From: Bacteroidales bacterium
Lineage (GTDB): Bacteria; Bacteroidota; Bacteroidia; Bacteroidales; M50B96
Direction: 5' to 3'
Assembly: GCA_018401015.1 (NCBI GenBank)
Contig: JAGYLP010000001.1
Span: forward strand, 1-64,000
DNA length: 64,000 nt
Position numbers and translations under genes: made by a program. The notes beneath the pieces are model-generated. The model was given only the letters and a program-made list of their open reading frames with translations, searched no databases and was not told where the DNA came from. Shown here piece after piece: positions 8,761-42,500 of this stretch; position 1 is the stretch's first letter; each line of letters begins with the position of its first letter.

Positions 8761-9327
8761 ATGAAAGCAATTGAATCCTTGAATGAGTGGAAAGATTGGT
8801 TGAAAGAACATCCAAATTCAGGTTTATTAATTTATAAATCGGGTTCGGAAATTAGTGAATGTGCTTACGGAAAACTGGCCGGTTTAGAAACTAAATTAGC
8901 TTTAGCTTTTGTCGATGTAAGCCAAGTGCGCGATGTTCATCCTCAGTATCAAATTACTTCGGCTCCAAGTTTATTATTATTTGAGCATGGTCAAATGACT
9001 CAAGTGGTTAAAGGCTGCATGGACGAAGATTATTACAAGGCGTTATTTGAAAAATCGCTGTTTACAGCTTCCGGAGTTGAAGGTAAAAAGCAAAACCGAG
9101 TGATTCTATACTCTACTCCTACATGCAGTTGGTGTAATACCATTAAAGGTTATTTAAGGAAGCGTCAGGTTGCATATCGAGAAATTGATGTGAGTAAAGA
9201 TGAAAAAGCATTGCAAGAGATGGTTCGCAAATCGGGTCAGCAAGGAGTGCCGCAAACCGATATTAACGGACAGGTAGTAGTTGGATTCGATCAGAAAAAA
9301 ATCGATCAACTGCTCGGTCTTAACTAA
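8761..9327 (+). CDS. Thioredoxin-like / glutaredoxin two-domain protein
   Basis: 188 aa, no signal peptide, so cytosolic. Residues 1-100 look like a thioredoxin fold with a retained cis-Pro segment (SAPSLLLF, P69), but the active-site loop reads KSGSEISEC and lacks the CxxC pair, so this half is probably not a redox catalyst by itself. Residues 112-188 are a glutaredoxin/NrdH-like domain with CSWC (C122, C125) after VILYSTPT, the cis-Pro in GVPQ and a GFDQKK end. The protein may reduce disulfides, with the degenerate domain serving docking or substrate recognition. It sits downstream of the candidate structured RNA and about 95 nt before the GroES-like gene. Confidence 0.8.
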   Translation: MKAIESLNEWKDWLKEHPNSGLLIYKSGSEISECAYGKLAGLETKLALAFVDVSQVRDVHPQYQITSAPSLLLFEHGQMTQVVKGCMDEDYYKALFEKSLFTASGVEGKKQNRVILYSTPTCSWCNTIKGYLRKRQVAYREIDVSKDEKALQEMVRKSGQQGVPQTDINGQVVVGFDQKKIDQLLGLN

Positions 9328-9420
9328 TTTTAGCGATTGCATCGTTTAAGGATTATTATTTTCGCACGAAAATTTGAGTAGTCATAATTGCCGAATCGTA
9401 AATTAAAAACTTATACTGTC

Positions 9421-9702
9421 ATGAAAGAATTACAGCCATTAAATGAAAATGTTTTGGTCGAAATAGAAGTAAAAGAAGCCAAAACGAGCAGTGGAATTAT
9501 CATACCCGATTCTGCACAAGAAAAACCTCAATATGCTAAGGTCATTGCGATTGGTAGCATTGAGAATGCTGGAATTAGTATTGGAGATTATGTATTCTTC
9601 AAGCAATATTCCGGAACCGAAGTTGAATTTGAAGGACGAAAACTCTTGTTTTTACCTTACGCCGATTTATTGGCAAAAATTGTTGAAACCGAAGCCATTT
9701 AG
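9421..9702 (+). CDS. GroES-like co-chaperonin (Cpn10), stand-alone
   Basis: 93 aa from the ATG at 9421; an upstream TTG in frame would only add a non-conserved tail, so ATG is preferred. The fold signature is present: LQPLNENVLVE at the N-terminus, the mobile-loop region TSSGIIIPDSAQEKPQ (about residues 20-35), then VIAIGS, GDYVFFKQYSGTEVEFEGRKLLFL and a C-terminal DLLAKI. It is more divergent than a housekeeping GroES, and no groEL is adjacent, so it may be a paralogue of the main groES or the relocated sole copy. A GroES heptamer caps GroEL. The gene is closed by a terminator at 9733. Confidence 0.82.
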   Translation: MKELQPLNENVLVEIEVKEAKTSSGIIIPDSAQEKPQYAKVIAIGSIENAGISIGDYVFFKQYSGTEVEFEGRKLLFLPYADLLAKIVETEAI

Positions 9703-9732
9703 GCTTTTCATAAAGTAAGTGCCCAATAATCG

Positions 9733-9764
9733 AAGGTTGCATTCAGGTGCAACCTTTTTTATTT
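9733..9764 (+). terminator. Rho-independent terminator after the GroES-like gene
   Basis: A perfect 9-bp stem (AAGGTTGCA 9733-9741, TGCAACCTT 9748-9756) with a 6-nt loop runs into a T-rich tail. It ends the glutaredoxin/GroES-like unit 30 nt past the stop codon. Confidence 0.85.
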
Positions 9765-9800
9765 CCGATAGCTTAGCATTTCAAATTGATAGAAGGAATC

Positions 9801-9808
9801 TATCTTTG
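9801..9808 (+). promoter_or_regulatory. Promoter -7 box candidate for rpiB
   Basis: TATCTTTG matches the Bacteroidota -7 consensus TAnnTTTG exactly. It lies between the terminator at 9733 and the rpiB ATG at 9852, giving a leader of about 38 nt. The -33 region about 20 bp upstream is only a weak match (ATTT). Confidence 0.4.
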
Positions 9809-9851
9809 TCGGCCTGTTACATTTAGTATTCAATAAATTTCGCAAACGATC

Positions 9852-10286
9852 ATGAAACGATTGGCTTTTGCATGCGATCATGCCGGTTATCAAACCAAAA
9901 AGTATCTTATCGACATTTTGAAACAAAGAGGGTATTCGATTATCGATTTTGGAACGAATTCGGAAGAAAGTGCCGATTATCCCGATTTTGCACATCCCAT
10001 GGCACAAGCAGTAGTGAATAGTGAAGCCGATTTTGGCATTTCTCTCTGTGGAAGTGGAAATGGAATTAATATGGTGGCCAATAAATACCCCGGTATTCGT
10101 TCAGCACTTTGTTGGGAACCTGAATTAGCTCGCTTAGCTCGCTTTCATAACGATGCCAATGTTTGTGCTTTACCAGCTCGATTTATTTCGCAAGACGATG
10201 CACTTAGTATTGTGGAAGCATTTTTATCGACCGATTTTGAAGGAGGTAGGCACATTGCGCGTATCGAAAAAATTCCTATTGGCTAG
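9852..10286 (+). CDS. rpiB: Ribose-5-phosphate isomerase B
   Basis: 144 aa, the normal RpiB length. The enzyme interconverts ribose-5-phosphate and ribulose-5-phosphate in the non-oxidative pentose phosphate pathway. Family residues are all present: ACDHAG at 7-12, DFGTNSEESADYPDFAHP, the catalytic Cys in CGSGNG (C66) and the phosphate/ring-opening His in ARFHNDANV (H99). LacA/LacB galactose-6-phosphate isomerases are the close alternative, but the lone gene and C66/H99 pair favour RpiB. It has its own candidate promoter and precedes the Rrf2 regulator on the same strand. Confidence 0.95.
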   Translation: MKRLAFACDHAGYQTKKYLIDILKQRGYSIIDFGTNSEESADYPDFAHPMAQAVVNSEADFGISLCGSGNGINMVANKYPGIRSALCWEPELARLARFHNDANVCALPARFISQDDALSIVEAFLSTDFEGGRHIARIEKIPIG

Positions 10287-10416
10287 CATTTATCAGGATA
10301 ATTCACGTTCGCTTGGCGGAATGCTGTTATGCTGAAGCATGACAAGATTTATGTTAAATTGCGACGTAATTTTTTGAATGATTTTACTTTTATAAGTGCC
10401 ACAAAATTCAGCCATT

Positions 10417-10854
10417 ATGCTATCGAATACATGTAAATACGGAATACGAGCCATGGTTTATCTGGCGGTACATGCCAGCGAAGGGAAAAAAATTGGGATT
10501 AAAAAAATATCCGACGATTTAGATATCCCCACCCCTTTTCTTGGAAAAATCCTTCAAATGTTAACCAAAAAAGGTTTCCTGAGTTCCTTAAAAGGACCTC
10601 ATGGTGGATTTGGTATTGGCAAAGATCCAAACGAGATTTCGCTCTACGATGTGGTTCTTCTAATCGACGGAGAAGGAATTTTTACAGGTTGTTTGGTTGG
10701 TATTCGTAGTTGCGAAGAAAGTGGTAAACCCAAATGTGCCATTCACGACGATTATGTCCCCATTCGAAATGATATCAAAAAATTATTTCAAAAAAGAACC
10801 ATTGCCTACCTTGCATCCATCTACGATGCCGACGACGGTTTAGTTGGTTTATAA
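10417..10854 (+). CDS. Rrf2 family transcriptional regulator with three-cysteine motif
   Basis: 145 aa from ATG 10417 (an upstream GTG is less likely, since Rrf2 proteins begin MLSNTCKYGIRAM or similar). The N-terminal winged helix contains TCKYGIRAMVYLA, IPTPFLGKILQML and the wing motif LKGPHGGF. Three cysteines (C92, C99, C107; spacing x6 and x7) occupy the position where IscR, NsrR and RsrR bind iron-sulfur clusters, so redox, NO or Fe-S sensing is plausible. Its targets are not apparent; autoregulation is usual in the family. The stop codon abuts the stop of the convergent asparaginase gene with no space for a terminator. Confidence 0.9.
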   Translation: MLSNTCKYGIRAMVYLAVHASEGKKIGIKKISDDLDIPTPFLGKILQMLTKKGFLSSLKGPHGGFGIGKDPNEISLYDVVLLIDGEGIFTGCLVGIRSCEESGKPKCAIHDDYVPIRNDIKKLFQKRTIAYLASIYDADDGLVGL

Positions 10855-11886
10855 TTAACTGCTTATTTCGCCGCTAATGTTGCTTTGTAGTAAGGCTACT
10901 TGTTTTTGGCGTTCTGTTTCTTTTCCAAGTACAAACATCAACTTTGCTAACGCAGCTTCGCTCGTTATATCGTGACCCGAAAGTACCCCAATATCCAATA
11001 ATTTTAGAGAGGTGTCGTACCGACCCATTTGTACACTACCAGCACTGCATTGCGTTACATTTAAAATTATTTTTCCCTGGTCGATGGCATGCTCTATAGC
11101 TTCTAAAAACCATGGAGAAGTGCTTGCGTTTCCAGCTCCATAGGTTTCCATTACTAAAGCTTTTATATCGGGATTGTGTAAAATACATTGGGCATATTCG
11201 GCCGACATTCCCGGAAATATTTTCAAAATACCTACCCGATTATCCAGTTGGGTATGAATTACTAAATCCTTTATAAGAGCCGGATAATGAATACTTTGAT
11301 AATTGAATTTAATTTCAATTCCAGCCTCGGCGAGTGGAGGATAATTGGGCGAATGAAAGGCATTGAAATGTTCTGCGCTGTATTTACTGGTTCTATTTCC
11401 GCGAAATAATCGGTATTCAAAATAAATGCACACTTCCGGTACCAGAGCCATTCCATTTTGTTTTTTCGCAGCAATTTCAATCGCGGTAATTAAGTTTTCC
11501 TTTCCATCGGTGCGAATCTTTCCAATCGGTAATTGCGAACCCGTTAGAATAACCGGTTTATATTGATTCTCCAGTAAAAAACTTAAAGCCGATGCAGTAT
11601 AAGCCATGGTGTCGGTTCCATGAAGAATAACAAAGCCGTCGAAGCGATCGTAATGTTCTTTTAGGATTTCTGCCAATTGTATCCATATTTTCGGATCCAT
11701 GTTCGAACTATCCACTATCGGATTAAAACTGAACGTTTCCAAGTGATATCCAAATGCTTTTAGCTCAGGAACCTGCTTTAAAATGTGATCGAAGTCGAAA
11801 GGTCGGAGTGTACCGCGTACCGGATCTTCGACCATTCCGATGGTTCCTCCGGTATAAATAATCAAAACAGACGGACGTTGATTCAT
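10855..11886 (-). CDS. ansA: Type I asparaginase
   Basis: 343 aa, no signal peptide, matching cytosolic type I L-asparaginases that hydrolyse asparagine to aspartate and ammonia. Both catalytic threonine motifs are present: YTGGTIGM (T15 region, N-terminal) and HGTDTMAYTAS, with DSSNMD between them. The C-terminal half has METYGAGNA and QCSAGSVQMGRY, typical of the type I (E. coli AnsA-like) dimer family. It starts 6 nt after the stop of the TMTC-like gene and probably belongs to that transcript. A glutaminase side activity cannot be judged. Confidence 0.93.
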   Translation of the reverse strand: MNQRPSVLIIYTGGTIGMVEDPVRGTLRPFDFDHILKQVPELKAFGYHLETFSFNPIVDSSNMDPKIWIQLAEILKEHYDRFDGFVILHGTDTMAYTASALSFLLENQYKPVILTGSQLPIGKIRTDGKENLITAIEIAAKKQNGMALVPEVCIYFEYRLFRGNRTSKYSAEHFNAFHSPNYPPLAEAGIEIKFNYQSIHYPALIKDLVIHTQLDNRVGILKIFPGMSAEYAQCILHNPDIKALVMETYGAGNASTSPWFLEAIEHAIDQGKIILNVTQCSAGSVQMGRYDTSLKLLDIGVLSGHDITSEAALAKLMFVLGKETERQKQVALLQSNISGEISS

Positions 11887-11892
11887 GCTGCG

Positions 11893-13818
11893 TTAGTCAT
11901 TACAATGTTGTTTCAATAAGGATTCGGCTTGCCGGAATCCGAGTTGCAAAGCTCGCTTAAAATCGGCACAAGCGCTACGATTATCCATCATTTGTAAGTA
12001 AGCGATTCCTCGATTCAAATAAACATGGCTAAAATCGGGTCGCAGGGCTAAACTCTGATTAAAATCCTGTATGGCCAGCGGATATTCTTGCACATTTAAA
12101 TAGATGACTCCACGATTCAGATAGGCTTCGGCTCCATATCCTTGATCGACCGCATGGTTCAGATCCTGCAAAGCAGATTCAATGTTTTCTTGCTTGAAGT
12201 ATTGAATACCTCTTGATACATAAGCTTTTAAATATTCCGGACGTAAACCCAGAAAGTAGCTATAATCGGAAATAGCTCCATTCAAATCGTTTCTGGCTGC
12301 ACGGGTCTCCGCACGATTAAACCAAGCTTGAGCAAAGCTGGAATCAGCAGCAATCGCTTCGCTTAAGTAAAATTCCGATTCTTCTGTTTTTCCCATTTCC
12401 CGGAGTACAATCCCCAGGTTATTGTATGGAAATAAGCTACTCGGATTAAGGGCGATCGCTTCTTTGTAATCCTTTATTGCTAAGGCGTATTGTTTCGTGT
12501 CGGCATAAGCTAATCCTCTATTATTGAGGGCAATTGACGATTTCGGATACTTGGTCGCCATATCGTCGAACAAACTGAGGCTCGATTCCCAAATTCCACT
12601 CCGTTGATTAGATTGAATGGTATAAAAAAGACCCAAAACAACCATTATGGAAAGGCTAAGATTACGAAGGTTTTTCTTGCGAGCCCATTGAACCAAATAA
12701 TGCGATAAGGGAAACCATACACCCAAAGCAGGCAGGTAGAGGTAGCGGTCGGCAATAATGAAATCGCGTAAGGGCATTACCTGTAGTACCAAAATAATGT
12801 TGGCCAAGAAAAAGTAAGTACCGAATATCCACCAACGGAACCGACGGATTTGCTTGAAAAAGAAATAAGCGAGAGCCACCACCGGAAGAATGCTTAAGTA
12901 AAGCAACATGGGAAAAGCTTCATGTGCTTCGTTCGGATAGGGATAAAATGCCGATAAATGAACGGGTAATACCAATTTGTAAGCATAAAGCAACAAGGAA
13001 TAGGAAGAATAGGCCAATTGCTGTAGAAAATGAACCGATCGGCTATCCTGCAAAAACTCTCCACTTTGGGTCGAATAAATGGTGATTAATCCCATTACAA
13101 GGGCAAGTAAAAAGAGGGGAATTTTTTCCCAATAGACTTTTTTGTCTTTAAAATCTCTGCGCAGCAAATAGTCGATTCCGAAGGTAGTTAAGGCCAGGGT
13201 TACGGCCTGTTCTTTTGCTAAAAATGAAAGGGTAAAAAAGAGATAGAAGAGGAGCAGCGATCGTCGGGGTTGGATTTTTTTTACATAGCTTACATACTGA
13301 TCAAGGGCCAATAGGAAAAAGAAACTGAAATTCAGCACTTTCTGAGCCGAAATCCAGGAAACACTCTCTACTTGCACCGGATGCAGCATGAACATGCCTG
13401 CTGTGAGTAGAGCAACCCAATCGTTCTCCGACAAACGACGAAAAATCCTGAAAACCAAAGCTGTATTTAACAAGTGAAGGAGAAGGCTAACCCAATGAAA
13501 AACCGATGCCGACCCTTCTCCTAATGCGTATTGACCGGCCATGATTAAGGCGGTAACCGGACTATACTGTCCTTGGTAGAATTCGCTAAACAAGCTTCCT
13601 ATTCGATCGAAACTGAAATCGTTTACGTATGGATTATCGTAAACAAACCAATCATCGTCCCATCGCACAAAACCGTGCGACAAAGAGGACCAGTACACCA
13701 TGAATCCAGCCAGTGCAAAAAGCACGGCATATAGCACTAGCTGCTTGGTTGGTAGTGTCGTAGCAGTCGAGTTGGGGCTTGTATGTTGCTTATTTTTTTT
13801 CGAAGGTGTTTTTTTCAT
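11893..13818 (-). CDS. TMTC-like membrane glycosyltransferase (GT-C fold) with C-terminal TPR repeats
   Basis: 641 aa. A basic N-terminus and first membrane helix (about 26-46) lead into an extracytoplasmic WDDDWFVYDNPYV segment (53-65), the acidic motif position of GT-C transferases, and HPVQVESVSW (146-155), matching the conserved His-Pro...Glu-Ser loop of eukaryotic TMTC and related O-mannosyltransferases. About ten hydrophobic helices extend to near residue 410. From about 425 to the end lie at least six TPR units (for example SIALNNRGLAYADTKQYALA). GT-C enzymes use polyprenyl-phosphate sugars; the gene overlaps by 29 nt the gene for a polyprenyl-phosphate sugar synthase, so protein O-glycosylation at the outer face of the inner membrane is a reasonable inference. 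Acceptors are unknown. Confidence 0.8.
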   Translation of the reverse strand: MKKTPSKKNKQHTSPNSTATTLPTKQLVLYAVLFALAGFMVYWSSLSHGFVRWDDDWFVYDNPYVNDFSFDRIGSLFSEFYQGQYSPVTALIMAGQYALGEGSASVFHWVSLLLHLLNTALVFRIFRRLSENDWVALLTAGMFMLHPVQVESVSWISAQKVLNFSFFFLLALDQYVSYVKKIQPRRSLLLFYLFFTLSFLAKEQAVTLALTTFGIDYLLRRDFKDKKVYWEKIPLFLLALVMGLITIYSTQSGEFLQDSRSVHFLQQLAYSSYSLLLYAYKLVLPVHLSAFYPYPNEAHEAFPMLLYLSILPVVALAYFFFKQIRRFRWWIFGTYFFLANIILVLQVMPLRDFIIADRYLYLPALGVWFPLSHYLVQWARKKNLRNLSLSIMVVLGLFYTIQSNQRSGIWESSLSLFDDMATKYPKSSIALNNRGLAYADTKQYALAIKDYKEAIALNPSSLFPYNNLGIVLREMGKTEESEFYLSEAIAADSSFAQAWFNRAETRAARNDLNGAISDYSYFLGLRPEYLKAYVSRGIQYFKQENIESALQDLNHAVDQGYGAEAYLNRGVIYLNVQEYPLAIQDFNQSLALRPDFSHVYLNRGIAYLQMMDNRSACADFKRALQLGFRQAESLLKQHCND

Positions 13819-14563
13819 GAGGCATTTCAGGTTTTAAATAATAACCGGTTTTCAATCGCCAGGCAATCGAAATAAGATCACCTAACATACCTAAACCATG
13901 ATACATCATACGAACCGTACTTAGTTCTTTGTTTCTCAATCGGACCGGTAATCCGATGGATACATATCCTTTTAAGGCTGCCAGACTTAGAATTTCTACA
14001 TCGAAAGCAAAACCGTCGATAGTACTTTGCCGAAAAAGCGTTTTTCCCACCGCCGATTTAAAAGCTTTTATGCCACATTGGGTGTCGGGTAAGCCTTTCG
14101 TAAAGACTTTACTAACCAAGAAGTAAAACAGATGACTTCCCCATTTTCGAAGGGGGGAAATGGATGCAAAGTATTCTGATTGCGGATGAGTGCGGTCGCC
14201 AACTACCAGGTCGTATTGCTTCTCGAAAATCAACTGATAAAAGCTCGCAATGGTTTCGTATTCGAATGGAATATCTACATCGGTAAATAAAACTACAGGA
14301 GCCCGTGCTGCAGCCATTCCTGTTCGAATAGCAGCTCCTTTTCCTTTATTCTCGCTTAAGAACAAGTACTTTACACCGAACTGTGTGCACACCTCACGGG
14401 TTTTCCCAGCATCGTTCGATCCATCGTCGATGATGATGATTTCAAAATTGGTAAACCGATGCTGCATAAACTGGAGCAAACCTCCTAGTTGCTTCGCCAA
14501 AATATCGGCTCCACGATAGGAAGGAAGCAAGATGCTTATTGCCGGTTTTTCCTTTTCCATCAT
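13790..14563 (-). CDS. GT2 glycosyltransferase, polyprenyl/dolichyl-phosphate hexose synthase-like
   Basis: 257 aa. It is a GT-A fold enzyme with ISILLPSYRG, IIIIDDGSND (DDGS at 46-49), ENKGKGAAIRTGM (71-83), and the metal-binding DxD in LFTDVDIPFEY (95-97), then VVGDRTHPQS and GLPDTQCGIKAFK. This set is typical of ALG5/DPM1-type enzymes, which move glucose or mannose from a nucleotide sugar to a polyprenyl phosphate. There is no C-terminal flippase-like helix pair, so it resembles soluble or peripheral DPM1 forms. It is the first gene of the run GT2, TMTC-like, ansA, and its 3' end overlaps the TMTC-like start. Either ATG (14563 or 14560) could start it. Confidence 0.88.
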   Translation of the reverse strand: MMEKEKPAISILLPSYRGADILAKQLGGLLQFMQHRFTNFEIIIIDDGSNDAGKTREVCTQFGVKYLFLSENKGKGAAIRTGMAAARAPVVLFTDVDIPFEYETIASFYQLIFEKQYDLVVGDRTHPQSEYFASISPLRKWGSHLFYFLVSKVFTKGLPDTQCGIKAFKSAVGKTLFRQSTIDGFAFDVEILSLAALKGYVSIGLPVRLRNKELSTVRMMYHGLGMLGDLISIAWRLKTGYYLKPEMPHEKNTFEKK

Positions 14564-14731: not shown

Positions 14732-16045
14732 ATGAGCCAAGTAAGGGATAAATTTTACTATGCAAAAAAAGAAGGATGGGTTTCTCTTTGGGCAAACCTT
14801 TTTCTCTTTATCATTAAGTTTTATGCGGGTATTGTTTCCGGCTCCGTAGCGTTAATTGCTGATGCCTGGCATACCCTTTCCGATTCGCTTTCATCTTTAG
14901 TAGTGCTTGTAGGTGCCAAAATCTCCCAAAAACCTGCCGACCACGATCATCCATTCGGACATGGCAGGGCCGAATCGGTAGCCTCTATCATTATTGGCGT
15001 TTTACTCGTATTGGTGGGGGTTAATTTTGCAGTGGAAGGAGTACAACGGCTTATGGATCGACAAGATGCCAACTACGGAACCATTGCCATTGTTGTAACC
15101 ATTATCTCGCTCGTTGTTAAAGAATTACTGGCTCAATATGCCATACGCCTGGGCAAGCGTTTTAAACTGTATTCCCTCATTTCCGATGGTTGGCATCATC
15201 GATCCGATTCCATTTCCAGTTTCGTTATTCTAGTGGGTATTTTTCTGGGTTCCTATTGGTGGTGGATCGATGGAGTGCTTGGCTTTTTAGTAGGCCTCAT
15301 GATAGTTTATACCGGTGTGGTCATTATTCGAAATACCATTCAACCCTTGCTCGGCGAGCATCCTAGCGAGGAATTGGTTCAATCGATTACCGAACTTGCC
15401 GAACAAATATCCGAACATAACTTACATCCGCACCATTTCCATATCCACAAGTATGGCGAACACAGCGAAGTAACCTTCCATATCCGTTTGCCCGGTGAAA
15501 TGATTTTGAGTAAAGCTCATCAGATTACCTACGATTTTCGAAATATTTTACGTGAAACATTAGGCATGGAAGCGACCATTTATCTTGAACCGGAACTACC
15601 CGACTTGGAAAGGGGAAATATTATTCGCTTTTCAGGAAACGACGAAAAACTCTTACATCGTGCAATCGAAATCCGAAAGAAAGTATTTGTCGAAGAACAA
15701 GGAGTCGACGAACAACTGGAAGTGGATGGGAAAGACAAAAACTGCATTCATTACTTGGTTCACAGTAAAGGAAATTACTATGCTACTGCCCGATACAGAC
15801 AAACAACCGAAGGAATCAAGTTAGAGCGATTTGCAGTAATGAAGCCTTTTAGGAATAAAAAAGTAGGAGAGGTCTTACTACGGTTTATTCTCGACGAGTT
15901 AAGTCATCAAAATCAAAAGGTGTACCTCCATGCTCAGGACCGTGCCGTGAATTTTTATTTGCGGGCCGGCTTTGAAATTAGGGGTGATGAGTTCGAAGAA
16001 GCTGGAATTAAGCATTTCAAAATGATTTATCCGGTAAAACAATAA
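14732..16045 (+). CDS. Cation diffusion facilitator (CDF) transporter fused to a GNAT acetyltransferase domain
   Basis: 437 aa. Residues 1 to about 290 form a complete CDF antiporter: six membrane helices, the metal site D44-x2-H47-x3-D51 in IADAWHTLSD, a second site SDGWHHRSDS, the GHGRAE loop, and a cytoplasmic domain with HNLHPHHFHIHKYG and HSEVTFHIRLPG. CDF proteins export Zn, Fe, Mn or Co in exchange for protons. Residues from about 295 to 437 form a GNAT domain resembling ElaA/PhnO-like acetyltransferases: IEIRKKVFVEEQGV, ATARYRQ, LERFAVMKPFRNKKVGEVLL (acetyl-CoA loop), and VNFYLRAGFEIRG. No stop or frameshift separates the halves. The next gene starts 3 nt after the stop. Confidence 0.9.
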   Translation: MSQVRDKFYYAKKEGWVSLWANLFLFIIKFYAGIVSGSVALIADAWHTLSDSLSSLVVLVGAKISQKPADHDHPFGHGRAESVASIIIGVLLVLVGVNFAVEGVQRLMDRQDANYGTIAIVVTIISLVVKELLAQYAIRLGKRFKLYSLISDGWHHRSDSISSFVILVGIFLGSYWWWIDGVLGFLVGLMIVYTGVVIIRNTIQPLLGEHPSEELVQSITELAEQISEHNLHPHHFHIHKYGEHSEVTFHIRLPGEMILSKAHQITYDFRNILRETLGMEATIYLEPELPDLERGNIIRFSGNDEKLLHRAIEIRKKVFVEEQGVDEQLEVDGKDKNCIHYLVHSKGNYYATARYRQTTEGIKLERFAVMKPFRNKKVGEVLLRFILDELSHQNQKVYLHAQDRAVNFYLRAGFEIRGDEFEEAGIKHFKMIYPVKQ

Positions 16046-31199: not shown

Positions 31200-31262
31200 C
31201 TGCTTATTTTAGGTAAAATCTAAGTTTTGAAGGAAGATAAATTTGTGGAGTACAGAAAAAGT

Positions 31263-34200
31263 ATGAAAAATCTTTTCTTGTTGCTGGTTCTTGTTGTGTT
31301 AACAGCAGCTTTTGGTAGAATAAATGGGCAACAATCGGTCAATATTTCAGTCTATTATGGAGGATTTGGAAATGAGTGTTCGTGGGAAATCGTTGAGAAT
31401 CTTTCCGGCGATGTAGTCCTGTCAGGTGGCCCCGGCGCCAGTTCCAGCTTCAGTTATAATAGTCCCATTAGTTTAAATCCCGGAGAATATACCTTCCGCG
31501 CATTCGATTCCGAATCCGATGGATGGTCCGATCCCGCCGGTTATTACGCCATTACACCAAACTTTGGAACAGCTACCGGGAATATTCTTTTTCCAACAGG
31601 ATCTGAACAAGAAACAAGCTTTACTATCCTTTCTCCCAATCCAGTCGAGGTAGGTGTAGTGGAATGGCTCAATCCTACCTCGGGTGCCGGTCTGAGCGCA
31701 AACCAAAGTATCACAGTAAAATATCGGAACTACGGAACTACCGCATTATCAAACCCGAGTTTTAGCTATTCCATCAACGGAGGTAGTAGCTTTACAACAG
31801 AACTTTATGCTGGTTCAATCGCACCGGGAGCTACCGTCGATTATACTTTCTCCCAGTCGGCGAACCTAGCAAACCCCGGAACCTATGCTTGTGTAGCAGC
31901 GGCCGATAAAGCAGGCGATACCTACAGCGGAAATGATACCCTCGAAATTTCCATTCAATCGATTGCAGCGATTACGAGCTACCCATACAGCGTTAATTTT
32001 ACAAACTGGCCTCCCGCTAACTGGCAGCTTACCGGCGGAACCAATCAATGGCAACAAGATCCTAGTAATGCCGCCATCGCTAAATTTTCGTTTTGGAATG
32101 GAGGCAATGCCATCCTTACAACACCTCCATTTAGCCTGCCTAGTCCGGCAACCCTTTCCTTTAATTGGTCCAGCTACTTTAGTCCTATCGCACTGAACGA
32201 TGCATTGTACCTGGAAGTTTCTACTAACAACGGACAAGCCTGGCAAACAATCTGGTCGAAAGAAGGGAATGAGCTTTTTTCCAACGATGGGGTTACCTTA
32301 GCTGCTCCTGGTTCCTATGCCTCCGAATCGATCGATCTGTCATCCTACGCCAGCTCCATCGTGATGTTCCGCTTCAGAGGAGTATCTGGTTACGGCCACG
32401 ATGTTTATATCGACGATTTTCAAGTGAGCATAAACCCTACCTACGACCTTGCTATAACCAGTCTCGCCAGCCCGGAATTAAATGCTTGTAACCTGGGTCA
32501 AAATGTTCCAGTTACCATTGCGGTCAAAAACCTGGGAGCACAAATGGCCAGTAATTTTAGTTTGAGTTATAGTCTCAATGGTATTGTTGTCGATACCGAA
32601 AGTTTTACCTCCTTCCTTCCTGCAGGTGCTACGATACAACATACTTTTTCGACTCCGGTCGATTTTTCAACGCTCGCTCAAGCAGAATTCGATTTTTCAC
32701 TCTCTTACGGACTAGACCTGAATGCCAACAATAATCAACTTACCGATGTAGTTGTCTTAAATTCAACTTCCATCAGTAGTTTCCCAGCATCAATCGATTT
32801 TGAATCATCAACCGAGAACTATTTTTCCTTCCTATCCAACGATCAATCCAATGCCTCGGTTCAACCCGATGGAAGTAACAATCAAAGCCTTCGTTTCGAA
32901 GGAGGAAATGTTTCGCAATTATGGATAGGTAGTGCTGATCCAAGTGCAAGCAATGCAACAACACCCGCTCAAGCCTGGGAAACAAATACGCCCTATCATG
33001 CTGAAGCTTATTCCTGTTCGATCGATGCAACCTCTTTAAGCACACTCGAACTATTTTTCGACTTAAAACAACGATACAATTCAGGAAAATTAAACTCCTG
33101 GTTCAGGGTATTGGTCAATGGAACGCCCATTGCCGACATCGATGGCAATATTAACTTTAACCCCGAAACATCCTACAACGATACCTATGTGAATCGGCAC
33201 TACGATTTATCGGCTTATGCGGGAACTCAATTTGTGCTTCAATTTCAAACAGCCAACAAATTTAGCTCTAGCTATTCCTTTCCCGGAGATGTTGCTTTCG
33301 TCGATAATATCCTGTTGCGTGAAATTCCACCGCCCGATATCGCATTGGTGGAGCTTATCAATCCTGTCACCACTTGTGGTTTAGGGAACGATGAGGCAGT
33401 TAGTTTCTCCGTTACAAATCTTGGAGGAGAGAGTGTTTCTAATTTTACGGTTGAAGTTGATATCGACGGAGTAAACCTTATTTCGGAAGTATTCACAGGA
33501 ATTTTATTGCCGGAGGATACCTTGACCTACACCTTAAGTAATACATTGGATCTTTCCGCTATTGATACCTACGCTTATGAAATGGAGTTTATCTTATCGG
33601 GCGATGTAAACACTCAGAATAATGCGATTTCAACCAGTATTGTAAATCATACAAGCCCAAATGTCTCAATAAATGGTTTAAATAGTGAGTTTTGTTTGTA
33701 TGAACAGGCAGTCACTTTGCAAGGAAGTCCAACTGGTGGAAGCTTTTCTGGAAATGGAGTAGAAAACTCTGTTTTTTATCCTTTTAACGCCGGTTTAGGT
33801 CAACACACCATTCACTATGTTTACTCCGATCCTCTTATCAATTGTGAGGTAGAAGTAGAGCAAAGCGTTTCGGTTATTGGCGAAGAAGTGTCTTTCACTG
33901 GACTCGACGAAAATCCGGAATTAATCGATGTTTTAGTGGTTGTCAATTATAATTCCTTTGCACCCTTAGAACAATCGTGGCAAATTATCAATGAGTCGGG
34001 TACTATAATCCTCGATAGTCCTACCGGAAATTACAATGGCTTTACATACAATGGTTACATCCAATTACCCGTCGGGGAGTATTACTTCATTGCTTCCGAC
34101 GTACCCGGAAACGGTTGGAATAATAGCTATTACGAAATTACTCCCGATTTGGGCGAAGGAACCGGAGTTCAAACATTTACTGTTTTACCCTTCAACGTTC

Positions 34201-36464
34201 CAACAAATCAACAAATAGATACTTTTCAAGTGGGTGTTCCTGTAGAATTTTGTGCCATCGATACGGCTATTGTACTTACGGGAAATCCTGTTGGTGGTAC
34301 TTTTAGTGGACCTGGTATCAGCCAGAATCATTTCAACCCCTCTCTTGCCGGACCGGGCACACATCAGATTAGTTATACCTATGAATCCTTGAATGCATGT
34401 GTTGCTACCGTAACGCAGGAAGTAACCATTCTTGAAACACCTCAAGCTTTTCTGGGGAGCGATATTACCGTGTGTAATAACAATGCCAGTATTGCTCTGG
34501 CTCCTTTCAACGGTCCTCAAGATGGAGTGTATAACTGGAGTAATGGTAGCACCAACGATACGATTTGGGTCGATACGAACGGAACCTATAGTCTCACCAT
34601 TACCGGTGATAATAGTTGCTCAACCATCGATACGATTGAGGTTGTGTTTACCACCGCGCTGGAATTAGATTTAGGCAACGACCTCTTGTTGTGCGAAGGT
34701 TCTTCTATAAGCATTCAAGCTCCTGCCGGATTCGATCAGTACCTCTGGAGTACGTCTGAAACGACCTCGTCCATATCCCTTACCGAAGCTGGAAGTTATT
34801 CCCTTACAGTTACTTCCGGTCAATGTACTGCTTCCGATACAGTAGAAATTACGGGTTATGTCCCCGAAACAGGAGTATCCAGTGCCTATCAAACTTGCCC
34901 TGAAACAGCCCTCACTATCGATGCCAATCCTTCCTTATCGACCTACCTTTGGTCCACCGGCGAAAGTTCTTCTTCGATTATTATTACTGAGGAAGGAAAC
35001 TATAGCCTCACCGTTACCGACCAAAATCAATGTGAGAATATTCAAGAATTTGCTGTAAGCTATTATCCTCTGCCGGAGATTGATTTAGGTCCCGACCAAA
35101 TTATCGAAGACACCTTAGTTATTCTCAATTTAGGTTCAGCCTACAGTAGCGTTCTTTGGTCAACCGGAGCAACCACTTCCTTCATTTCCATCGATACTGA
35201 GATTTATGGTGAAGGGGTTTATGAAATTTGGGCGCAGGTAAGCGACCAAAATAATTGTAGTAACTCCGATACGCTTACCATTACCGTATTGGAATCCATC
35301 GTCAGCCATTCCATATCGCTATCCAATGGATGGAGCATCATTTCCACTTATGTTAATCCTCAAAGTACTGATGTAGTTCCCCTTTTCAGCGATATTTACT
35401 CCAACTTGATTATTGTTAAAAATACTGCAGGCGACGTGTATTGGCCAGGATTCAATTTCGATGGGATAGAGGTGTTTAATCCGCTCGAAGGTTATCAGAT
35501 ATTGATGAATCAGGCTGATGTACTAACAATCCAAGGTTCGCTTATCGATCCTCTTTCAACCCCACTCAACTTACCGGTTAACTGGAGCATCATTGCTTAT
35601 TCTCGTACCTCTGCAGCTCCCATCGTCACTCTTTTGAGCCCCATCGTTAATGATATGATCATTATTAAAAACAGCGCAGGCGAAGTGTATTGGCCCGACT
35701 TGGGTTTCGATGGAATTGGGTTGATGCAACCCGGTGAAGGGTATCAGATTTTAATGCAGCAAGCTGCTACACTCACCTATCCGGCCAATTCAGCTTCCTT
35801 TGCCCCTGTTCCTGTTAAAAGTATCCCTGCTTTAACTGCATTTGAACAAGTTGCTCCATCAGGAAATAGCATGACGCTTGGAATTATCGCTCAAGCCCTT
35901 CCCAAACAACATTTCTACCCCATAGAAGTAGGTGTGTTTAATTCCAATCAGGAACTGGTTGGATCCGGTCTCCTTGTCAATAGCCAGGAAGCTTTGGCCA
36001 TCAGTTTATGGGGAATGGACGAAACACATGTATCTCAAAATTGCCTTTCTCCATTTGAATCCTATACCATTCAACTTTATTCTCAGGCTAGTAATGAATA
36101 CTTGAGCCTAACTGAAGTTGCCTATAGCAAAGGGGATGGCCAGTACGAACATAACGACTGGGAAATCATCGAAAAACTTGTAATCAGTGAGCGAACTCCA
36201 CTGGAAGCCCCAACGATGACCCTTTATCCCAATCCAATACATCAAGCTCCCTTGCAGCTTACTATGGAAATTATGGAAAGCTCTAAAGTAAACGTTGAAA
36301 TAGTTAATGTCGAAGGTGAAACGCTTAAACAAGTGATAGACGATTATTATCTTTCGGGAAAATATCATCAACTAATCGATTTGAACGACTTAGCGGCAGG
36401 ATCTTATTTTGTCATTTTGTCGTCGAATCAGCATCGAATTGTAAAAGGCATTGTAAAGCAATAG
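31263..36464 (+). CDS. Large secreted multidomain protein with T9SS type A sorting domain
   Basis: 1733 aa from ATG 31263 (an upstream TTG would put a charged tail before the signal peptide). Signal peptide MKNLFLLLVLVVLTAAFGRI..., then a C2-like domain (CSWEIVENLSGD ... GEYTFRAFDSESDGWS), a choice-of-anchor J/MAM-like domain near residues 240-385, CARDB domains (DLAITSLASPELNACNLGQ; DIALVELINPVTTCGLG), a second anchor-type domain, gapped Ig-like units (GSPTGGSFSGNGV; GNPVGGTFSGPGI), several short Ig/PKD-like WSTGETSSSI units, and a duplicated unit of about 95 aa (GWSIISTYV ... GYQILM; NWSIIAYSR ... GYQILM). The C-terminus LYPNPIHQAPLQL ... GSYFVILSSN is a type A sorting domain. It should be surface-exposed, an adhesin or enzyme-free matrix protein. 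Confidence 0.88.
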   Translation: MKNLFLLLVLVVLTAAFGRINGQQSVNISVYYGGFGNECSWEIVENLSGDVVLSGGPGASSSFSYNSPISLNPGEYTFRAFDSESDGWSDPAGYYAITPNFGTATGNILFPTGSEQETSFTILSPNPVEVGVVEWLNPTSGAGLSANQSITVKYRNYGTTALSNPSFSYSINGGSSFTTELYAGSIAPGATVDYTFSQSANLANPGTYACVAAADKAGDTYSGNDTLEISIQSIAAITSYPYSVNFTNWPPANWQLTGGTNQWQQDPSNAAIAKFSFWNGGNAILTTPPFSLPSPATLSFNWSSYFSPIALNDALYLEVSTNNGQAWQTIWSKEGNELFSNDGVTLAAPGSYASESIDLSSYASSIVMFRFRGVSGYGHDVYIDDFQVSINPTYDLAITSLASPELNACNLGQNVPVTIAVKNLGAQMASNFSLSYSLNGIVVDTESFTSFLPAGATIQHTFSTPVDFSTLAQAEFDFSLSYGLDLNANNNQLTDVVVLNSTSISSFPASIDFESSTENYFSFLSNDQSNASVQPDGSNNQSLRFEGGNVSQLWIGSADPSASNATTPAQAWETNTPYHAEAYSCSIDATSLSTLELFFDLKQRYNSGKLNSWFRVLVNGTPIADIDGNINFNPETSYNDTYVNRHYDLSAYAGTQFVLQFQTANKFSSSYSFPGDVAFVDNILLREIPPPDIALVELINPVTTCGLGNDEAVSFSVTNLGGESVSNFTVEVDIDGVNLISEVFTGILLPEDTLTYTLSNTLDLSAIDTYAYEMEFILSGDVNTQNNAISTSIVNHTSPNVSINGLNSEFCLYEQAVTLQGSPTGGSFSGNGVENSVFYPFNAGLGQHTIHYVYSDPLINCEVEVEQSVSVIGEEVSFTGLDENPELIDVLVVVNYNSFAPLEQSWQIINESGTIILDSPTGNYNGFTYNGYIQLPVGEYYFIASDVPGNGWNNSYYEITPDLGEGTGVQTFTVLPFNVPTNQQIDTFQVGVPVEFCAIDTAIVLTGNPVGGTFSGPGISQNHFNPSLAGPGTHQISYTYESLNACVATVTQEVTILETPQAFLGSDITVCNNNASIALAPFNGPQDGVYNWSNGSTNDTIWVDTNGTYSLTITGDNSCSTIDTIEVVFTTALELDLGNDLLLCEGSSISIQAPAGFDQYLWSTSETTSSISLTEAGSYSLTVTSGQCTASDTVEITGYVPETGVSSAYQTCPETALTIDANPSLSTYLWSTGESSSSIIITEEGNYSLTVTDQNQCENIQEFAVSYYPLPEIDLGPDQIIEDTLVILNLGSAYSSVLWSTGATTSFISIDTEIYGEGVYEIWAQVSDQNNCSNSDTLTITVLESIVSHSISLSNGWSIISTYVNPQSTDVVPLFSDIYSNLIIVKNTAGDVYWPGFNFDGIEVFNPLEGYQILMNQADVLTIQGSLIDPLSTPLNLPVNWSIIAYSRTSAAPIVTLLSPIVNDMIIIKNSAGEVYWPDLGFDGIGLMQPGEGYQILMQQAATLTYPANSASFAPVPVKSIPALTAFEQVAPSGNSMTLGIIAQALPKQHFYPIEVGVFNSNQELVGSGLLVNSQEALAISLWGMDETHVSQNCLSPFESYTIQLYSQASNEYLSLTEVAYSKGDGQYEHNDWEIIEKLVISERTPLEAPTMTLYPNPIHQAPLQLTMEIMESSKVNVEIVNVEGETLKQVIDDYYLSGKYHQLIDLNDLAAGSYFVILSSNQHRIVKGIVKQ

Positions 36465-36510: not shown

Positions 36511-39500
36511 ATGATTATGAAGCACTTTTTATCATTTAAACATTTGTTGGCTTCTTTACTGCTTGTTCTACTGGGAACAACGGTAATTGCTCAGCCTGCT
36601 ACCTGGTCCTTCTATAACACGGGAGCAAATCATACGATTCTCGTCCAACCGGGAACAGTAACGATTGATGGGTCACCTATTGTATCCGGTGATTACATAG
36701 GTGTATTTTATACGGTTGGAGCAGGTCCCGACTTGGCTTGTGCCGGATATCTGGAATACAATAGCGCGGCTAATAATGCAATGACTGCCTGGGGTACCGA
36801 AGCCGGTTTGAATAATGGTCTTGCTAATGGAGAAGAATTTAAGTGGAAAGTATGGCGTGCTGCCGATGGTGCTATCATCGACATGACGGCAACGTATCAA
36901 ACTGCTGGTTTCCCAAATTTAGGAACTTATGTAACCAATGGTATTTCCGCAATTGCCACCATGACAGGTTCCGGTCCGGTCGTTTCTTTCTCGGCTACTG
37001 GCGATGCGACCAATGTTAGTTGCTATAATGCCTGCGACGGAGAAATTGCTTTAACTGTAATGGGGGGCCAAACTCCTTATTCATTCAGCTGGTCGAATGG
37101 CGAAACTACTCAAAACCTTAGTGGTTTGTGCGCTGGTTCTTACGCTGTTACCGTTAGCGATGCAAATGGAGGAACTACTCCTGAACCTTTCGATTGGACA
37201 TGGGTAAATACCGGAGCTAATCACACCATCCTGGTTCAACCGGGTGTAGCTACAATCGATGGCGATCCTATTCAAAACGGTGATTACATTGGAGTTTTCT
37301 ATACCGTTGGTGCGGGTCCAGATTTGGCTTGTGCAGGGTATGTCGAATGGCTTGGTATCAACACCGCCGTTACAGCCTGGGGTACCGAAGCAGGACTGAA
37401 TAATGGATTAGCAAATGGGGAAACATTCAAATGGAAAGTTTATAGGGCTTCAACCGGTGAAGTAATCGATATGGATGCAACCTATCAATCTGTCGGCTTC
37501 CCCAATCAAGGAACTTATGTAACGAACGGTATTTCTGGTTTAGCGACCTTAGCTGGAACATCGACCCAATCGGGTGGTGCTGGAAATTCTACCACTCTCA
37601 GTTTTGAAATTACTCAACCCGACGAAATTATTATCACCTCTGTATTGTCAAATTACGATGGCTTCAACGTGAGTACTTTTGGTGGTTCCGATGGAACAAT
37701 CGATCTTACAGTTAGTGGAGGGGTAAGTCCTTATACTTTTGCTTGGAGCGATGGTGCTTCGCTAGAAGATAGAACCGGACTGAGCGCAGGAACGTATTCG
37801 GTCACAGTTACCGATGCCAATGATTGTACGTCCGAAGCTTCGTTGGAATTAACCCAACCACTCATTATACCTCTTGAAATTTCAACAAGTGCGACCGATC
37901 CTACTTGCTTCGATCTTTGCAATGGAACTATTAGTGTCGTTGTAGCAGGTGGTATTGAACCATATTCGATTGAGTGGACAGGTGGTTTAAGCGGTTTTGC
38001 TCCGGCAGATGTTTGTGCCGGAACGTATTCTGCAACTGTATCCGACGCCGGAACAGGAGCTCAGGCTCAATCGCAGGTGATTAGCTTTGAATTGACCTCT
38101 CCCAACGCCATCGTAGTGACAGCCGATATCATAGCTGCAAGCTGTAATGGCTCCATCGACGGTGCAATTGATGTTAGCGTTTCAGGTGGAACAGCTCCTT
38201 ATACGTTCTCCTGGAGTAATTTAGCCTCTACAGAAGATTTACTCGATCTGGCAGCTGGTTTCTATACCCTCACCGTATTGGATGCTAATGATTGTAGCCT
38301 TATCGAGTCTTTCGAAATTACTGAACCTCTTAGTCTTCTTGTTTCGGCTGAATTAATCGATGTAAACTGTAATGGCGACGCCTCTGGTGCTGTGTATGCT
38401 GAAGTATCCGGAGGGACTTCTCCTTACAGCTATACCTGGAGCAACGGAAGCACGCTTTCTTCTGTTACCGAAGTAGTCGCTGGTGAATACACCCTTACTG
38501 TTACCGATGCGAATAACTGCGAAGTAATCGAGATGTATGAGATTATGGAACCAACCATGATTGATGTACTTACCGATGTATCAGGAGTTTCTTGCAATGG
38601 AGCAAACGACGGCGAAATTACCGTTAGTGTTTCGGGTGGTGTTAATCCTTACACCATTGCCTGGGCCGACTTCCCAACTTCGACCAATTTTTCTTTAACC
38701 AATCTGGCACCTGGTCTCTACGTTTATACCGTAACCGATGCGAACGATTGCGCTTATGAATATGAAGACCTTATCACAGAGCCTGAATTACTTACATTAA
38801 GCGGAACGTTATCCGATTATGCCGGATTTAACGTTAGTATCTTTGGTGCAAGCGATGGTTCTATTACTACTACTGTTTCAGGTGGAACTACTCCCTATAC
38901 GTATAGTTGGTCAAATGGAAGTACGAGTGCTAATTTATTGAATATCCCTGCTGGTTCTTATTCTCTTACCCTAACCGATGCTAATGGTTGTACTGCCGAA
39001 TACAGCGCTAATCTTACGGAGCCCGACCCAACCAATCTCTTAAGTATTTCGGGTGCTATTAATCATGTTACCTGTAACGGAGCTGCCGATGGTTCAATCA
39101 ACTTAACCATTACCGGTGGAACTGCCCCTTATGTTGTTCTTTGGAGCAATGGAGCTAGCTCAACCATGATTGACCAATTAGTTGCAGGTACTTACGCTGT
39201 AACTGTTACCGATGCCGATAACAACGAGATTGTTGGTAACTACGTGGTTAACCAACCGGATATGCTTGTTCTTGACCTTATCCCATCTGATTATAATGGA
39301 TTTGGAGTAGGTTGCTATGCTGCTACCAATGGTTTTGTTGAAACTTCAATCACCGGTGGTACCGCTCCTTTTACATTTGCTTGGTCTAATGGTGCCACTA
39401 CTTCGTCTATCCAAAATCTTGCAGTAGGAACGTATAGCCTCACCATTACCGATGCTAATGGTTGTGTTGCTATGGCCGAAGCTTCTATCAATCAACCAAC

Positions 39501-42500
39501 TCCTATGGCCGCTTCTTCAACAGCTTTCAATGTTAGCTGCTTTGGAACAGCAACTGGTTCAATCAACCTGAATGTAGTTGGTGGAGTTGCACCTTATACC
39601 TTTGTATGGAGTACCGGCGCAACCACTCAAAATTTGCAAAATGTTGTAGCTGGAACGTATTCAGTTACCGTATCCGATGCAAATGGTTGTCCATTCATCA
39701 TTGACCGTACCCTTACCGAACCAGCTCTTTTAACGATGGACCTGGAAATCGTTCAAGAAGTATCTTGTTTTGATTTTACCAATGGTGAACTCTTTGCCAA
39801 CGTTAGTGGAGGTACTACTCCATATACTTATACTTGGTCTACCGAGATTCCAGTTAATGGTCCAACACTGGCTCAAATTGGTTCGGGTAGCTACAGCGTC
39901 ACCGTTACCGATCATAATGGTTGTGAGGTTTCTGCTACCGAAACCCTTGCCAATCCTGTGGCTATCGAAATGACTTATTCCGTTACCAATATTCTTTGTA
40001 ATGGCGATGAAACCGGTGCAATCGATGTTACTACAGCTGGTGGAACGGGCAACTTGGCCTACAACTGGAGTAATGGTGCCTCTACGCAGGATCTCGAAAA
40101 CGTGGCTGCCGGATTTTATACGCTTACCGTTAGCGACGATAACTTCTGTGAATACATAGAAACGATTGAAGTCCTTGAAAATACTGCCATCCTTTCCAAT
40201 GCTTCCATGGTTGACTTAGTATGTAATGGTGCAGCTAACGGTAGCATTGAACTGATGATCGAAGGGGGAACCGCTCCTTATGCTATTCTTTGGAACACAA
40301 ACGAGACCACTAGCACGCTTAACGGCTTAAGCGGTGGTGAATACGCCGTTACCATTACGGATGCAAATGATTGTGTGCTAACAGAATCTTACTCCGTATT
40401 CGAACCTACTGCCATTGAAATTATGGGTCAGGTGGTGAATATTACCTGTACCAACGATAACGATGGTTCTATTAATGTATTCGTTTCCGAAGGAACTCCC
40501 GGATATACCTATGCCTGGTCCAATGGCGCTACTACTATGAATTTGACTAATCTGGCGGGAGGTACTTATGTACTTACTGTTACTGATGCAAATGAATGTA
40601 CCGCTACTGCAAGTTTCGATGTTATTAATCCTGAGCTCGTTTCTGGTGAAGCTGTAGTTAACAATCTGCTATGTTATGGCGATGACAACGGAAGCATCAA
40701 CCTTACTGCTCAAGGTGGTACCTCTCCTTATTATTATGCCTGGTCTACCGGCTCGTTCGACGAAGATCTCAATGATTTAGTTGCTGGTGTTTATGAAGTG
40801 ACAATTACCGATATCAACGGATGTCAAGGGGTTGAATCTTTTGCTGTAAACCAACCCGCTCAGTTAATGGTATCGCATATTACAAGCGATTATGCCGGAT
40901 TTGGTGTAACTTGTTTTGGAAGCTCCGATGGTTATGTTGAACTCTCCGTAAGTGGTGGAGTTTTACCATACACGTATTTATGGAGCAACGGAGCAACAAC
41001 TCAAAACGTTTATGACATCCCTGCCGGCGATATTTCGGTTGGTGTTATTGATGGTAATGGTTGTTCTATTTCCGAAGGTCCGGAATTCCCCTGGTCGTAT
41101 GCCAATACAGGAGAAAATCACACTGTTTTCATTCCATCTGCTCAAATAAATGGTCTCGATATTCAAGTAGGTGATTATATCGGAGTTTTCTATAACAATA
41201 ATGGCGAAATGGCTTGTGCAGGTTATATCGAATGGACTGGTTCTCAGAATGCTATTACTGCTTGGGGCTCGGAAGAAGGTTTGAATAATGGATTCCAAAC
41301 AGGCGAAGCATTTAGTTGGAAAGTATGGCGTGCAAGCGACGGTGTCGAAATTGAAATGACTCCTGTTTACGACCTCGTTCAATTCCCGAATGCTGGTACC
41401 TATACCATCAATGGAATTAGTGGATTATCCTCTTTAACCGGATCAGGCCCATCGGTTCAACCGAATTTGGGTTACTTCATCAATCTTACCTCACCCGAAC
41501 CGCTTACGGCTTCTGGTACGGTATCCGACTATAACGGTTATGGTGTAAGCTGCAACGGCGCAGAAGATGCTTCCATCAGCCTTGATATTGTTACTTGTAT
41601 CGAAGATTATGAAATTCTTTGGAATACAGGTGCCACTACCCAAACAATTACCGGTTTAAGCGCTGGTAACTATTCCGCTACCGTGAGCTATGTCTTTGGC
41701 GAAGTTACCGAGCCTACTCCTTTTAACTGGACCTATAATAATACCGGTGAAAACCATTCTATCTATATTCCAGGTGCTACCATTAATGGATATAGCATAG
41801 CCGTTGGTGATTATATAGGTGTATTCTACGATCAAAATGGAAGCCTCGAATGTGCCGGTTATGTTGAATGGCAAGGAATTCCTACTGGTTTGTCTGCATG
41901 GGGAACCGAAGTTGAATTAAATAATGGTTTGGCTTTAGGCGAAGAATTCAAGTGGAAAGTTTGGCGTGCTATCGATGGTATGATTATCGATATGACCGCA
42001 ACCTATGGAACCAACTTCCCGAACACTAACACCTACACTACCAACGGTATTAGTGGATTAACCAGCCTTGTTGGTGAATCAAGCCTTGAATTCTTTGTAG
42101 GTGATTTTGAGGTTGACTTTACCGTTACTGAACCAGAGGCTCTCACAGCAACAGCTCAGGTAGCCGGAAATGCTTGCTTTGGTGATGCAATGGGTACGGT
42201 TGTGCTGACCGTGGAAGGTGGCGTTGAGCCATATACCTATGCTTGGTCAAGTGGTGAAACTGGAAATGAAATTGCAAATGTCGCTTTTGGTGAATACACA
42301 ATTACTGTAACCGATGCCAATGCTTGTACCTTGGTTGAAACCTTTATGATTAGCCAACCGGAAGCACTTGATATTATGGAAACCCTTTCACCCGTTCTTT
42401 GTAATGGAGGTACCGATGGTGCAATTGATATTACAGTTACCGGTGGTACCGAGCCATACGCTTATGCATGGTCAAATGGCTCTGTAGAGCAGTCAATTAA

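Follow-up and report, generated by a model that had tools for sequence, protein, structure and literature searches.

The window, by which we mean the whole stretch of 64,000 nucleotides analysed here, carries on its reverse strand two overlapping genes coding for glycosyltransferases; all coordinates of their features given below refer to this strand. The upstream one (13790..14563, 257 aa) codes for a GT2 glycosyltransferase, a predicted polyprenyl-phosphate sugar synthase as judged from its ORF, PF00535, profile matches, and predicted fold. The downstream one (11893..13818, 641 aa) codes for a GT-C membrane glycosyltransferase with C-terminal TPRs, as judged from its ORF and the PMT_2 and TPR families. 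The overlap of 29 nt (13790..13818) can be read directly from the sequence, where the ATG of the GT-C gene sits within the 3′ end of the GT2 gene; both ORFs and the overlap are thus as given in a preliminary description of this DNA. A type I asparaginase gene (10855..11886, same strand) lies 6 nt downstream of the GT-C gene. An asparaginase gene likewise takes third place in G002 and also in G001, where an inserted ORF precedes it, but none adjoins the pair in G067 or G082. The ORF at 14732-16045 codes for a cation diffusion facilitator with a fused C-terminal GNAT acetyltransferase domain; its orthologue in G002 is of similar length and the one in G001 is shorter (296 aa). PADLOC gave no match. 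Farther away, a tRNA-Gly call (35313-35396) inside a large ORF (31227-36464) is probably a false positive.

The GT2 protein belongs to Glycos_transf_2 (Pfam PF00535, E = 5.9e-22). When a profile built from nine relatives is compared with solved chains, the top matches are GtrB (1.2e-18) and 5mlz, a dolichol monophosphate mannose synthase (DPMS, 1.3e-18) that we take to be from Pyrococcus, followed by chondroitin synthase and ArnC (3.8e-18 each); a broader profile of 21 rows places chondroitin synthase first, then DPMS, ArnC, and GtrB. The predicted model (pLDDT 90.3) has ArnC, GtrB, and DPMS as best folds, with TM-scores of about 0.6-0.7 on the query, and a DxD motif (D95-x-D97, 14273..14281) is invariant in 9/9 relatives and in 21/21. 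The profile and predicted-fold matches to GtrB, DPMS, and ArnC indicate that the protein is likely a polyprenyl-phosphate sugar synthase, the class originally proposed for it. The motif DTQCG (residues 160-164, 14072..14086), invariant in 9/9 relatives, has only the D and the G in common with DPMS of P. furiosus at this position and is, we presume, of the ALG5 type. Hence, glucose is as open as mannose for the identity of the sugar. Relatives of ALG5 and DPM are treated in PMC4973528. The secondary structure of the model shows no transmembrane segment, only a C-terminal helix (219-239). Human Dpm1-type enzymes lack a membrane anchor, whereas GtrB-type enzymes are anchored by one or two transmembrane helices. 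The latter description is that of PMC11127046.

The GT-C protein matches PMT_2 in Pfam (E = 1.5e-6, 28.9 bits for a cut-off of 26.1), and its Pfam TPR matches span residues about 430-626. A membrane domain of residues about 1-403 (12610..13818) is delimited by averaged hydropathy together with the positive-inside loops, and residues 1-420 match PMT_2 at 6.6e-7. The TPR array (residues about 425-632, 11923..12546; TPR_1, 4.6e-34) matches PDB chains of designed TPRs and of the TPRs of OGT. Positive charges are found in the loop ARKKNLRN, before the last helix of the membrane domain, and at the N-terminus, and by the positive-inside rule this would place the TPRs in the periplasm, together with the active site. 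We aligned the five proteins of the window's clade with 68 other GT-C-TPR proteins. The DD pair of the first outer loop (D54 D55, 13654..13659), which corresponds to motif M1 of the eukaryotic TMTC proteins (PMC7801869), is present in 72 of the 73 sequences, with a gap in the 73rd. KEQAVT (residues 202-207, 13198..13215) corresponds to TMTC motif M4, KE(T/Q)xxT, and DRYLY (residues 357-361, 12736..12750) to M7, ERxxY, with D for E; K202, R358, and Y361 are found in 73/73, and so is E151. E203, at the position of the metal-binding glutamate of M4 (motif list in Table 4 of PMC7801869), is present in 5/5 proteins of the window's clade and in only 1/68 of the others, the copy at C23 (locus L011), which is also adjacent to a GT2 gene. 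The assignment to the GT-C class with C-terminal TPRs made in the preliminary description therefore stands, given PMT_2, the catalytic motifs, and TPRs predicted on the catalytic side. Single-sequence structure prediction of the GT-C protein (pLDDT 52) was too poor for fold comparison, and the membrane domain has no match among PDB sequences at E ≤ 10, for either the window copy or the C23 copy. No relatives of the GT-C protein were found among viral contigs, and in a plasmid collection the protein matches 13 records, in each case by its TPRs alone and never reaching 80% coverage.

The likeness to TMTC1-4, eukaryotic protein O-mannosyltransferases, holds in part. The window protein shares with them the succession of a GT-C domain and TPRs, the location of the TPRs on the catalytic side (predicted here), and motifs M1, M4, and, with D replacing E, M7. 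In contrast, it lacks TMTC_DUF1736 (PF08409, no match even at E ≤ 10), M3 (RxD), and M5 (DW), and its M2 is reduced to Y-x-P. In the window's clade, which has no match to DUF1736 either, QKV or IKV stands at M3, whereas among the 68 other proteins the R of this motif is found in 55 and its D in 56. Another difference is that in the window the donor synthase is encoded next door. The same genome contains four GT-C-TPR genes, two of which are unpaired. The second pair, at C23, resembles the first in that a GT-C-TPR gene (9057-11066) adjoins a GT2 gene resembling polyprenyl-phosphate sugar synthases (11078-11830, 11 nt downstream of the GT-C gene), but the order of the genes is reversed and the GT2 is of another type. 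The C23 GT-C protein has the motifs YRP, KENTIT, and ERFVY and a sub-threshold match to TMTC_DUF1736 (2.1e-5, 24.8 bits for a cut-off of 27); on its sequence it is this copy, rather than the one of the window, that best matches TMTC. Full-length prokaryotic homologues of TMTC were already noted in PMC7801869.

Orthologues of both genes are rare. A search of 393 genomes from this order finds the GT2 in seven (E ≤ 1e-40) and the GT-C in five (E < 1e-140, the next match being at 1.7e-113), and all five genomes with the GT-C are among the seven with the GT2. In a sample of 392 genomes of the phylum, two have the GT2 (E ≤ 1e-35) and one has the GT-C (E ≤ 1e-90), the genome of the window being counted in both. 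The GT2 lies directly upstream of the GT-C, in the same order and on the same strand, in 4/5 genomes: the window, G002, G067, and G082. In the latter three the genes are separated by 91, 216, and 18 nt, respectively, and the exact 29-nt overlap is not kept. The two genes of G001 are on different contigs, the GT2 at the end of one and the GT-C at the start of another, and the genes that flank the pair in the window, upstream and downstream, lie on the corresponding sides. Neither the GT2 (E ≤ 1e-40) nor a close GT-C was found in G003, from the same genus, but with this genome only 60% complete the absences mean little. The genes flanking the pair are common to the window's family, where a Wzx-like transporter gene is found two genes away, and differ in the two other families (G067 and G082). 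Hence, the linkage does not merely reflect slow rearrangement. The GT2 is upstream in G002, G067, and G082 versus 5/68 other GT-C-TPR genes (Fisher test, 1e-3, computed without the window and the split case of G001, and not a strict probability since the copies are related). The five GT-C proteins of the window's clade group with a support of 100. The GT2 phylogeny unites the other four paired copies in a single clade (95/99) and places the window copy, on a long branch, outside both this clade and the copies linked to a methyltransferase (see following). In conclusion, the pairing is real and occurs more than by chance, but it is rare. Of the co-occurrence expected from the preliminary description, the linkage is kept in three families of one order, but pairing is not obligatory, as 63/68 other GT-C-TPR genes are unpaired.

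These 68 genes (>480 aa) come from 63 loci, namely the 60 highest-ranked loci of the order list outside the window's clade and the three paralogues of the window's own genome. A GT2 gene on the same strand within 400 nt is found for at least five of them (L011, L136, L139, L146, and L153), a lower bound because contig ends truncate some loci. The GT2 proteins of L011, L136, and L146 (type B) are 70-73% identical across families, whereas identity among the GT-C proteins of these loci is no more than 24-37%; those of L139 and L153 (type C) are 41% identical. Such repeated association with three types of GT2 speaks for polyprenyl-phosphate sugars as the donors of GT-C-TPR enzymes in general; unpaired ones could be fed in trans. 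At L144 (genome G027) there are at least three GT-C-TPR paralogues in tandem, and a fourth is truncated at the edge of the locus.

Some relatives of the window GT2 have no adjacent GT-C-TPR gene: those of G134 (L035), G672 (L187), and L037, a MAG labelled Chitinophaga pinensis, each adjoin a gene for a methyltransferase of 247-255 aa. The one of G134 is within a polysaccharide-type cluster, and the one of L037 (49% identical) overlaps a PMT_2 gene without TPRs. This GT2 type is therefore used with other partners too. G067 combines methyltransferase, GT2, and GT-C at one place, G082 has the methyltransferase elsewhere in its genome, and G000, G001, and G002 lack it. A Methyltransf_23-type gene (242-255 aa) recurs beside GT2 relatives in L035, L037, L187, and L033, which suggests that in that branch either the sugar or the acceptor is methylated. 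A scan of named genomes with the GT2 yielded 80 loci, almost all of them only distantly related (identities of 29-39%, and 49% in one case), and no TMTC-like GT-C was found near them at E ≤ 1e-4; the scan was rough, as the longest-ORF rule hid some GT2 ORFs. At many GT2 loci of Acidimicrobiia, a many-helix protein adjoins the GT2.

Pairs of GT2 and GT-C enzymes with genetic evidence have been described in other bacteria. The pairs CsbB-YfhO and GtlA-GtlB glycosylate lipoteichoic acid (PMC5836110), and Gtr and pentofuranose systems, comprising a GT2, a GT-C, and a flippase, act on O antigens (PMC11127046). As we propose for the window, in CsbB-YfhO and GtlA-GtlB a GT2 making a C55-P-sugar works with a GT-C, and csbB and yfhO are in one operon that does not include a flippase gene, another likeness to the window pair. 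The differences are the acceptor (lipoteichoic acid), the GT-C family, and the TPRs, which the consulted portions of PMC5836110 do not mention. The three-component system GtrABC, responsible for O-antigen glucosylation, likewise combines an undecaprenyl-phosphate sugar synthase with a GT-C, but has a flippase of the GtrA family; no GtrA (PF04138) was found in the genome of the window, the control being positive in 7/14. A limited literature search, judged by titles and the openings of abstracts, revealed no published description of a bacterial GT2/GT-C-TPR pair.

As for possible acceptors, the preliminary description pointed to nearby surface proteins, named SprB giants. The 3198-aa and 2169-aa ORFs concerned match only a T9SS type A sorting domain and choice-of-anchor J (NCBIfam), which does not bear out the name, and they are >20 kb from the gene pair, with no link to it found. 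The motif D-[ST]-[AILVMT] is absent from the 3198-aa protein, where shuffles give 15.2; it occurs 6 times in the 2169-aa protein (12.1 in shuffles) and, unremarkably, 8 times in a neighbour of 1745 aa (6.5 in shuffles). In the 3198-aa T9SS cargo (36511-46107) D followed by S/T is observed once versus 34.8 expected by shuffling, and S/T followed by D is enriched. This scarcity could reflect avoidance of the O-glycosylation motif or repeat composition; N-[ST]-X and E-[ST]-X are likewise scarce in this protein, and the composition of its repeats may therefore account for part of the effect. In Porphyromonas gingivalis, O-glycosylation is reported to be biased against abundant T9SS cargo (PMC8729774). 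These observations weigh against the giants as substrates of the general system of O-glycosylation and are silent on an enzyme with another preference.

We infer the use of the donor, its flipping, the nature of the sugar, and the acceptor from the observed genes, classes, motifs, and linkage. The GT2 would charge polyprenyl phosphate with a hexose at the cytoplasmic face, a flippase would move the lipid-sugar across the inner membrane, and the GT-C would transfer the sugar onto a periplasmic acceptor by means of DD, K202/E203, and R358, while the TPR array, likewise periplasmic, would hold the acceptor or a partner. This two-step reading, with a protein as first guess for the acceptor, seems to us evenly poised between right and wrong; that a donor synthase works with a periplasmic GT-C transferase is likely, and a protein acceptor is a reasonable guess. 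The two-step reading is supported by the profile and fold of the GT2, the PMT_2 match and near-invariant catalytic residues of the GT-C, the conserved linkage, and the recurrence of GT2 types B and C. Against it are the 63/68 unpaired genes, the GT2 copies linked to a methyltransferase, and the position of the window GT2 in the tree, as well as a GT2 model without an anchor, the lack of GtrA, the poor GT-C model, and the lack of PDB matches for the membrane domain.

The same chemistry might instead act on a glycan or a lipid, whether LPS, exopolysaccharide, or some other polymer of the envelope, with the TPRs docking the enzyme to envelope assembly machinery. We regard this as a serious possibility, if one short of even, since the published pairs with genetic evidence act on glycans (PMC5836110, PMC11127046), and since one GT2 relative lies in a polysaccharide-type cluster (G134) and another overlaps a TPR-free PMT_2 gene (L037). 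However, a fused TPR array suggests a protein partner, and no polysaccharide cluster was recognised near the pair in any of the five genomes with the GT-C orthologue, where few neighbours are assigned to families. It is rather unlikely that the two genes are neighbours without a common pathway, the GT-C receiving its donor from another GT2, such as the type B enzyme at C23, and the window GT2 feeding something else. Most GT-C-TPR paralogues are indeed unpaired, the genome has 13 GT2 loci, and GT2 relatives are found with a methyltransferase instead; yet the linkage is kept across three families with different flanks, and E203 is in all five orthologous GT-C proteins and in only one of the 68 others, itself GT2-adjacent.

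Finally, the pair might be the undiscovered initiating enzyme of the general D-S/T O-glycosylation system of Bacteroidota, of which the oligosaccharyltransferase (OTase), the ligase, and the core flippase are described as undiscovered and the first sugar as a hexose, mannose (PMC12871550). The motif of that system is enriched in nearly all families according to the same source, whereas the orthologues of the GT-C are restricted to 5/393 genomes of the order and 1/392 of the phylum sample at the above thresholds, and the largest T9SS protein of the window has no such motif. The distribution nearly refutes this idea for the window's clade, and we consider it extremely improbable.

Bacteroidota may have a second, lineage-specific route of periplasmic protein O-glycosylation, a reading that we offer tentatively and think somewhat doubtful. 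It would use polyprenyl-phosphate monosaccharides and TMTC-like enzymes, with several GT-C-TPR paralogues per genome, each having a set of acceptors of its own read by its TPRs, and one or two dedicated donor synthases to feed them, and would be separate from the system based on oligosaccharides assembled on Und-P. On this view, the C23 pair would correspond in bacteria to the TMTC pathway of eukaryotes. The prokaryotic relatives of TMTC are uncharacterised, and a compact pair of this kind would offer a two-gene system for testing their targets and the choice of acceptors by TPRs. A possible monosaccharide-donor route would also be added to a phylum where the enzymes of O-glycosylation are largely unidentified.
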